This document shows, one piece after another, positions 48,597 through 50,251 of a stretch of 64,000 nt of DNA (positions within the stretch are counted from its first letter, which is position 1; each line of letters opens with the position of its first letter). The position numbers and the translations under genes are program-made. The DNA lies in assembly GCF_016862935.1 (NCBI RefSeq), contig NZ_BONX01000057.1:1-64000 (forward strand), written 5' to 3'. Source of the DNA: Plantactinospora mayteni. Its GTDB lineage: Bacteria; Actinomycetota; Actinomycetes; Mycobacteriales; Micromonosporaceae. The notes beneath the pieces were generated by a model. It was given only the letters and a program-made list of their open reading frames with translations, was not told the DNA's origin and ran no database searches.

Positions 48597-48902
48597 CCCT
48601 CGTGCCCCGCCGCCGGTGAGCCGCACGGCTCCCGCCCGGGGCGCTCGGACTGCCGCCGTGCGGACTCGGGGTGCCGTTGACGAACGTGTCACCAGTCGCC
48701 ATAAGCCTGCGAGAGCTTCGTCGTTCCGACTTCTTGGCCGGCACGATGCGAGGCCGTGAGCCGCGAGCCGATAGGCATGGACGAGCTGGTTGAGCACTGG
48801 ACGGCACGACCCCGCTCTTCTGGAGCCATATCCGCCCCTACGGCAGTCCAGTCATCGGAAGCTACTCGACGAGATCTCGCAACGACTCCGGCAACGCATC
48901 GA
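48597..48902. other. Intergenic region holding the left inverted repeat
   Basis: 306 bp between the 3' ends of the PucR-type gene and the LRR gene. It contains a short hairpin (GAGCCG/CGGCTC near 48618), the left 33-bp inverted repeat (48671-48703), and, on the minus strand, what looks like an out-of-frame continuation of the LRR gene (to a stop at 48862). Confidence 0.5.
48671..48703 (+). repeat. Left copy of 33-bp inverted repeat flanking the LRR segment
   Basis: 33 bases matching the reverse complement of 50132-50164 at 32 positions; the one difference is GTTGACG here against GTTAACG there. It lies 75 bp after the PucR-type stop. Together with the right copy it encloses the LRR gene and a recombinase remnant. 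Confidence 0.85.
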
Positions 48903-49886
48903 TCACCTCGTCATCCACGAAAGTTCCTCGAGCTCGGTGAGGTTTCCGATCGTGTCCGGCAGCGCGGTGAGCCGGTTGCCGTTCAGGCGAAGCGCGGTGA
49001 GGTTGGTCAGGTTTCCGATCGTGTCCGGCAACACCGTGAGCTGATTGCCGTTCAGGTTGAGCCTGGTGAGGTGGGTCAGGTTCCCGATCGTGTCCGGCAA
49101 CACCGTGAGCTGATTGCCGGACAGGTTGAGCTCGGTGAGGTGGGTCAGGTTTCCGATCGTGTCCGGCAACACCGTGAGCTGATTGCCGTACAGAATGAGC
49201 GTGGTCAGGTTGGTGAGGTTTCCGATCGTGTCCGGCAACGCCGCGAGCTTGTTGCCGTCCAGGTAAAGCTCGGTGAGGTTGGTCAGGTTCCCGATCGTGC
49301 CTGGCAGCGTGGCGAGCTTGTTGTTGGGCAGGTTGAGCTCGGTGAGTTCGGTGAGGTTTCCGATCGTGCCTGGCAGCGTGGTGAGCCGGTTGCCTTTCAG
49401 GCGAAGCGTGGTGAGGTTGGTGAGGTTCCCGATCGTGTCCGGCAACGCCGCGAGCTTGTTGCGGTCCAGGTTGAGCCCGGTGAGGTTGGTCAGGTTCCCG
49501 ATCGTGCCTGGCAGCGTAGTGAGCTTGTTGTTGGCCAGGTTGAGCCAGTCGAGGTTGGTGAGGTTCTCGATCGTGCCTGGCAGCGTGGTGAGCTTGTTTT
49601 CGTACAGCAAGAGCTTGATGAGCTCGGTGAGGTTCCCGATCGTGCCTGGCAGCACCGTGAGCTGATTGTTGGACAGGTCGAGCTCGGTGAGGTTGGTGAG
49701 ATTCCCGATCGTGTCAGGCAGCGTGGTGAGCTTGTTGCCGGACAGGTCGAGGGTGGTGACGGTGGTGAAGTCAGGAAGAGTCGCCAATGACTCGTGCAGT
49801 GTCTCCAACCCCAGACCGGCCAGGTTCAACTCCCAACCGTAAAAACCAGCCGCTTCCCCACCACGATCGTCCACACCCACACCCAT
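48903..49886 (-). CDS. Leucine-rich repeat protein (12 near-identical repeats)
   Basis: 327 residues. A 44-residue N-terminal cap (GFYGWELNLAGLGLETL...) leads into exactly 12 leucine-rich repeats of 23 residues (45-320) with consensus LxLxxNxLxxLPxTIGNL, ending in a short seven-residue tail. No signal peptide or membrane helix, so presumably cytoplasmic and protein-binding. The repeats differ mainly at the exposed positions. ATG at 49886 follows GGAGG; an in-frame start at 49916 has none. The abrupt tail and a good out-of-frame continuation (DALPESLRDLVE, ending at 48862) suggest a recent 3' frameshift. Base composition is lower in GC than its neighbours. Function unknown. Confidence 0.88.
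   Translation of the reverse strand: MGVGVDDRGGEAAGFYGWELNLAGLGLETLHESLATLPDFTTVTTLDLSGNKLTTLPDTIGNLTNLTELDLSNNQLTVLPGTIGNLTELIKLLLYENKLTTLPGTIENLTNLDWLNLANNKLTTLPGTIGNLTNLTGLNLDRNKLAALPDTIGNLTNLTTLRLKGNRLTTLPGTIGNLTELTELNLPNNKLATLPGTIGNLTNLTELYLDGNKLAALPDTIGNLTNLTTLILYGNQLTVLPDTIGNLTHLTELNLSGNQLTVLPDTIGNLTHLTRLNLNGNQLTVLPDTIGNLTNLTALRLNGNRLTALPDTIGNLTELEELSWMTR
48927..49754 (-). repeat. 12 x 69-bp tandem repeat array (LRR coding)
   Basis: Twelve in-frame 69-bp units encode the LRR domain. The segment for the IGNLT part is nearly invariant in DNA, including synonymous positions, while the concave-face codons vary. Such DNA-level uniformity indicates recent unequal crossing-over or gene conversion. 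Confidence 0.92.
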
Positions 49887-49967
49887 CACGCCCCTCCCCG
49901 GACCACTGCCAGTCAAGATCCGAGAAAGCTACCCCGGGACTGGCGAAGCTGCGGGGGCCGCACCGTA

Positions 49968-50081
49968 GCCCGGTGTTTGTCCGGTTGGGGTGAACCCAAG
50001 TCCGCGCTGGCCAAGGAGTTCGGCATCAGCCGCGAGACCGTCTACGGCTACCTGCGCGCCGTCCCCGCCCCGGCCTCATGA
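49968..50081 (+). pseudogene. C-terminal helix-turn-helix of a serine recombinase (remnant)
   Basis: The frame ending at 50081 encodes SALAKEFGISRETVYGYLRA, the typical C-terminal DNA-binding helices of resolvase/invertase-type serine recombinases. No catalytic Ser domain is present upstream, where the sequence belongs to the LRR promoter region. A short fragment of a recombinase gene is the simplest reading. It sits 50 bp inside the right inverted repeat. Confidence 0.6.
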
Positions 50082-50131
50082 TGCGTCGCCTTCCGGCGGC
50101 CCGCGCTCACCGAGCGACCCGCCGCCGGTCC

Positions 50132-50164
50132 TATGGCGACTGGTGACACGTTCGTTAACGGCAC
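50132..50164 (-). repeat. Right copy of 33-bp inverted repeat flanking the LRR segment
   Basis: Reverse-complement partner of 48671-48703 (32/33). It lies 88 bp before the hydroxyisobutyrate-dehydrogenase-like gene at 50252. Confidence 0.85.
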
Positions 50165-50251
50165 CCGGCTCCTGTCGAGCAGCAGTTCGGCGGCCCCGCA
50201 CTGACGCCTTCGGACAACCCTGGCCGGGGCGGGACGCCCTAGGCTGGCCGG

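Follow-up and report, generated by a model that had tools for sequence, protein, structure and literature searches.

The segment at positions 48668-50167 of the window (the whole 64,000-nucleotide stretch analysed, contig NZ_BONX01000057.1 of Plantactinospora mayteni) is very probably a Tn3-family transposon derivative that has suffered an internal deletion, is non-autonomous and encloses an LRR gene. The original prediction had described a small non-autonomous cassette, mobile or invertible, with an LRR protein as cargo; its non-autonomous character stands, given two terminal inverted repeats (TIRs), no complete transposase and one passenger, whereas its invertibility does not. Our reading draws on the identity of the TIRs, on two fragments of tnpA and the tail of tnpR, on the layout of these parts and on full-length relatives with 5-bp target duplications, all of which are observed directly.

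The arms of the repeat, predicted at 48671-48703 and 50132-50164, are indeed reverse complements at 32 of 33 positions; taken at full length (48668-48705 and 50130-50167) they match at 35 of 38, and a BLAST alignment of the two gives 34/35 identical bases. The left arm, on the plus strand and on the tnpA side, reads GGGG...TAAG, in keeping with the TIRs of relatives and with the pattern GGGG-N30-TAAG over 38 bases, which we take to be the general TIR format of the Tn3 family. The right arm is a near copy that reads CGGG...TAGG on the minus strand. Inverted repeats of 38 bp are described as conserved among Tn3-family transposons (PMC4133298). Most of the first 33-35 bases are common to the relatives found here, and not all of these end in TAAG. 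The window arms are identified as TIRs of an actinomycete Tn3-family lineage. They are also the only such sites nearby: the 64-kb window holds no further site fitting the arm pattern at ≤3 mismatches (0.00 expected from shuffles), and a 23-bp core searched at ≤3 mismatches in the 9.84-Mb genome has exactly two matches, the arms themselves (reversed control 0), which answers the earlier call for a search for other copies. The exact 23-bp inner pattern gave no match in the genome-contig database, phage records gave no match, and the exact 24-bp core was absent from viral contigs.

Between the arms, only the LRR gene and the helix-turn-helix of a recombinase had been foreseen; both are present, but two tnpA fragments also lie at 48756-48844, and they are the only tnpA sequence inside the TIRs. 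The 5' remnant MSREPIGMDELVEHWT (16 codons, 48756-48804, plus strand) aligns by eye and without gaps to the TnpA start of a relative, VSRSPLDLDALVEHWT, and begins 88 bp from the TIR tip, compared with 96-126 bp in three relatives. Directly after it, in a different reading frame, follows the 3' remnant GTTPLFWSHIRPYG (14 codons, 48802-48844, plus strand), which matches residues 957-970 of a TnpA encoded elsewhere in the same genome at 10 of 14 positions (tblastn E 4e-6 in a database of 508 bp). Scores were compared with those of 2000 randomised copies per test, against the proteins of a relative (genome G198) and of the own genome: the tnpA start reached 69 against a randomised maximum of 34 (G198) and 50 against 38 (own), and the tnpA end reached 69 against maxima of 40 (G198) and 50 (own). 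At the DNA level, the closest left end among the loci compared belongs to a Tn3-like element of Streptosporangium pseudovulgare JCM 3115 (L197/L237), with 80% identity over 147 bp that include the TIR and the tnpA start and end at the break. This element differs from the window in its length of 4.87 kb, its tnpA homology in three pieces and its lack of both an LRR gene and a target duplication. The sequences to either side of the break have counterparts on a plasmid of Kitasatospora cathayae (85% identity over 71 bp, and 84% over the 43 bp of the 3' remnant), with 0.7 kb between the two matches. That plasmid (NZ_CP115452.1, L214 8001-8813) itself carries a broken tnpA of the TIR lineage, with start and end 0.7 kb apart, which has MFS/TetR genes on one side and a tgmAB-type RiPP locus on the other.

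Towards the right arm, on the plus strand, lies the 3' remnant of tnpR (49989-50081), recognised as the HTH_7 domain of a serine resolvase (PF02796, E 2.9e-6). The predicted C-terminal helix-turn-helix of a serine recombinase is thereby borne out, and it is all of the resolvase that the TIRs contain. Its DNA shares 85% identity, over 75 bp, with a gene for a recombinase on a plasmid of Nocardia sputorum; its score exceeds the randomised maximum by 52 to 40 against G198 and, by a narrow margin, 49 to 46 against the own-genome tnpR. The last 81 bp of the segment (50086-50166), which form the transposon end on the non-tnpA side, are 91% identical to a TIR end of Nonomuraea aurantiaca (L204/L239), the closest right end among the loci compared; a search for a second arm to match that end gave none at ≤8 mismatches within 10.5 kb. 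Because the tnpA, tnpR and right-end matches fall in this way, the segment reads as a Tn3 transposon minus roughly 930-940 tnpA codons, which are missing between the two remnants, and minus most of tnpR.

The enclosed LRR gene (48903-49886, minus strand) encodes 327 residues from an ATG at 49886, or 337 from a possible TTG start at 49916. It is a frame with a 69-nt period (LRR_8, E 1.9e-78) and, as predicted, 12 repeats; these have 23 residues each and are open throughout, the last one being cut by the stop. Three-frame translation reveals an out-of-frame LRR continuation, FVDDEVIDALPESLRDLVE, ending in a stop (48862-48924, minus strand); since this further repeat continues in another frame, the gene likely carries a 1-nt frameshift near its C-terminus, as read from the translation. 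The N-terminal stretch resembles, by eye, those of other short actinomycete LRR proteins. Differences among the repeats, summed over all unit pairs, number 386/322/378 at codon positions 1/2/3, a pattern that does not point to strong purifying selection between repeats, in an array that is hard to read in this respect.

The TIR lineage is dispersed among actinomycetes. A 25-bp TIR core at ≤3 mismatches occurs in 18 of 354 genomes of the family, the window genome included (one genome in the reversed control), and at ≤2 mismatches in 13 of 394 genomes drawn evenly from the class, again counting the window genome. A scan of one genome per species placed 18 loci in named actinomycetes, and the genera comprise Nonomuraea, Streptosporangium, Micromonospora, Streptomyces, Planomonospora, Planobispora, Marinactinospora, Actinoplanes, Sphaerisporangium and Nocardiopsis. 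With PF01526, Tn3 transposase sequence was detected in 15 genomes out of a set of 61; the own genome is among them, with one open frame of 1003 residues. Six full-length elements bounded by related TIRs are each flanked by a perfect 5-bp target duplication: CACTC in the own genome, GGCTG in G003 (same genus), GAGTA in G355, GTTCT in G198, ATCGT in G617 (taken to be Marinactinospora thermotolerans) and GGGTT in G160, the last read across a contig end on the assumption of a circle. All six have tnpA homology near a TIR; the match is unbroken in four of them (own genome, G003, G198, G160) and falls into two pieces in G355 and into four in G617; the TIR of G617 is of the same subtype as that of the window (28/28 to the GTTAAC consensus).

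The own-genome element spans 6404 bp (L055 5775-12178, contig C9) between its CACTC copies. Its TnpA, a frame of about 1000 residues, matches PF01526 and NF033527, and efflux-type passengers, genes for an MFS transporter and for a TetR regulator, lie between tnpA and an outward-reading tnpR for a serine resolvase. It shares with the window element a related TIR, a tnpA that reads inward at one end, a tnpR that reads towards the arm at the other, and passengers between them. Unlike the window element, it keeps a full TnpA frame and a perfect duplication, its passengers are the MFS and TetR genes, and its TIR agrees with that of the window at only 26 of 34 positions, so that its TnpA may not recognise the window TIRs. 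Layouts vary within the lineage, since the tnpR of the G198 element reads inward, opposite to both the window and the own-genome element. In the G003 element (L057 5725-12996), both ends show a tnpA start by eye, and between them lie a HEAT-repeat gene and a gene for an HTH_21/rve transposase, presumably IS3-like. A HEAT-repeat gene also stands beside a recombinase on a plasmid of Streptomyces sp. NBC_01213 (L216 12727-14330), where several genes for Tn3 transposases lie in the same region, and the search of plasmids with the HEAT gene returned 5 records, all below 60% identity. Two further observations concern other mobile DNA. In G285 (L195 4708 and 4787), two Tn3-type TIRs of the same orientation follow each other at a distance of 79 bp, as though one end had landed by another, and the window contains a gene for a TnpB-type RNA-guided nuclease (NF040570; 43632-44828, minus strand) about 4 kb from the element.

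Marks of insertion around the segment itself are less clear than in the full-length relatives. With the TIR tips at their canonical places, 2 of 5 flanking positions are the same on both sides; a candidate duplication, GACTC (48663-48667) and GGCTC (50167-50171), agrees at 4 of 5 only if the right tip is set one base short, a match that random flanks would give about 11% of the time with the 4 offsets tried. Looked for as earlier suggested, target duplications are perfect (5/5) at the six relatives and equivocal at the window element. There is no second copy of the segment in the own genome, and no orthologous empty site was found among 61 genomes. The best relative of the neighbouring pucR gene in that set (49% identity, G021) has rearranged surroundings, with the dehydrogenase gene lying beyond the cyclase and SDR genes, which makes a clean empty-site comparison impossible. 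Nor was a duplication found (best 3/5) at seven other TIR pairs that are deleted, miniature or broken in tnpA: the 4870-bp Streptosporangium pair, a 329-bp pair in G298, 197-bp pairs at two places in Planobispora, an 877-bp pair in Planomonospora, a second Streptosporangium pair of 176 bp and an 878-bp pair in Nocardiopsis. The test took in these seven; a few more inverted pairs are visible among the loci, for example in L236. The short pairs may be what a deletion left behind once an element had inserted, or two ends of unrelated origin. The two Planobispora longispora miniatures (L238 3354-3550 and 7012-7208) run from TIR to TIR, lie 3.66 kb apart and are TIME-like, with flanks that show no duplication.

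Transposons of the Tn3 family move replicatively by means of a DDE transposase, TnpA, that works on the TIRs. The ancestor of the window element would have had the order TIR - tnpA - passenger - tnpR - TIR and would have transposed in this manner, with TnpA acting on its 38-bp TIRs. A deletion then probably took out the roughly 930-940 missing codons of tnpA and joined the first 16 to 14 near the end; tnpR was reduced to its C-terminal helix-turn-helix, and the LRR gene persisted in the place of a passenger, on the opposite strand. What is left could presumably be moved only by a related TnpA acting in trans on its TIRs, and it is unable to encode a resolvase of its own. We infer that the LRR gene was carried in by the transposon and not gained after its decay, and that the element is now probably immobile.

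The most serious competing account concerns the passenger: the LRR gene may have never travelled with the transposon and instead have entered a Tn3 remnant that had already decayed. The gene has a G+C content of 61%, compared with 77% and 74% in two flanking genes, and the TIRs and LRR genes do not keep company elsewhere among the loci examined. When no more than 6 candidates were scored in each genome, homologues of the LRR protein at E ≤1e-20 were present in 51 of the 354 genomes of the family, counting the own one, and 40 LRR loci (L151-L190) were compared, being the best-scoring homologues and re-fetches of some of them; one is the window and the other 39 represent about 32 distinct genes. 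Not one of these 39 has a TIR at ≤7 mismatches, the nearest approach being one poor site with 8 mismatches and no GGGG tip, and the notion of a dispersed LRR element was dropped on this count. Conversely, no LRR frame lies near the TIRs in any of 68 rows from outside the window (the flanks measured at most about 1.5 kb in 67 rows and 12 kb in one, and several rows are one place reached twice). Among 51 longer TIR loci, an LRR frame appears in L201 and L238 only, which are the same place in Planobispora, and there it lies beyond the TIR pair by about 2.5 kb. Among the loci examined, the association of TIR and LRR gene is thus seen only at the window locus. The original prediction had named a dispersed repeat with no link to LRR genes as the case that would speak against it, and this is largely what emerges: the repeat is dispersed in actinomycetes and encloses no LRR gene elsewhere in the loci examined. 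Against late entry speaks the position of the LRR gene, cleanly between the tnpA and tnpR remnants, which is the place of the passengers in the own-genome full-length element; in addition, no separate insertion boundary was noticed, although none was systematically sought. On balance we regard late entry as possible but clearly the less probable course. Other LRR matches bear little on the matter: copies in contigs C7 and C8 of G003 look like assembly duplicates, because over 11.5 kb they agree with C1 at every base (100% identity), and the 116 plasmid records matched by the LRR protein, from many unrelated bacteria and all below 60% identity (best row 54%), are what generic LRRs would be expected to give.

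A slightly less favoured alternative, which we consider unlikely, is that of an active mobile insertion cassette, inserted as a TIR-passenger-TIR unit, mobilised by a TnpA in trans and spreading the LRR gene. It would account well for the near identity of the TIRs over 38 bases, for an LRR frame open over 12 repeats and for flanks that almost repeat each other, and elsewhere in the genome there is a full-length Tn3 element whose tnpA frame is unbroken. However, the segment exists in a single copy, its flank match is of the kind that chance supplies about one time in nine, the TIRs of the resident TnpA differ at 8 of 34 positions, the LRR gene has an apparent frameshift, and no other LRR locus examined bears these TIRs. 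Rather improbable, in our estimation, is the more ambitious version in which a still mobilisable Tn3 cassette carries a free-standing LRR protein as selected cargo, within a wider habit of actinomycete Tn3 elements to take up genes for solenoid-repeat proteins, such as the HEAT genes of the G003 element and the Streptomyces plasmid. An invertible cassette, in which a site-specific recombinase would flip the LRR gene between the two repeats, has next to no credibility: inverted repeats do enclose a serine-recombinase fragment, but the repeats are Tn3 TIRs of the sort found at the ends of full-length transposons, only the helix-turn-helix tail of a recombinase was found between them, and the single assembly seen holds one orientation and no second copy; inversion is rejected for the first two of these reasons. 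Tn3 resolvases, moreover, act at res sites and not at TIRs. The preferred reading, a decayed Tn3 derivative with its passenger, makes the locus essentially an ordinary mobile-DNA relic and not an invertible switch.

Non-autonomous Tn3 derivatives of comparable build are known. The mobile insertion cassettes with TALE genes in Xanthomonas are described as having Tn3 TIRs at both ends and no transposition enzymes (PMC6304161), and MIC231 of Bacillus cereus, cited in PMC6542083, is counted in the same class. The window element resembles them in its Tn3-type TIRs around a passenger and in the need for TnpA in trans, with neither a complete tnpA nor a complete tnpR between the arms; it differs in its retained tnpA and tnpR remnants, its LRR passenger, its actinomycete host and a target duplication that is only a candidate. 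TIMEs and TIME-RES are non-autonomous Tn3 derivatives with 38-bp TIRs and lengths of 262-3892 bp, one with a predicted resolvase gene and a res site; they were captured while transposing and made 5- or 6-bp duplications (PMC4133298). The window element shares their non-autonomy and 38-bp TIRs, whereas its movement is putative and its duplication a candidate. Gene-free miniatures are given as about 262 bp for TIMEs and 30-300 bp for MITEs in the same source (PMC4133298), and the window segment, at 1.5 kb and with a frame of 327 residues, lies outside this range. Its TIRs and gene content suggest that the element works, or once worked, like TIMEs and mobile insertion cassettes. No report of a Tn3 element with an LRR passenger was found in searches of an open-access library. 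The earlier statement that no such element had been described holds at most for the combination of passenger and host group, since Tn3 cassettes and TIMEs have been described.

Altogether, TIMEs and mobile insertion cassettes are established kinds of element, and the new details lie in the LRR passenger and in the TIR lineage. What appeared as an odd 'LRR cassette' becomes a documented Tn3 derivative, and a TIR sequence is provided for a Tn3 lineage present in ten actinomycete genera. The locus also illustrates how a Tn3 element can decay while the gene that it encloses stays open. If the LRR gene is a true travelling passenger, such elements would offer one route for the spread of LRR genes between actinomycetes; otherwise the locus is an ordinary one.
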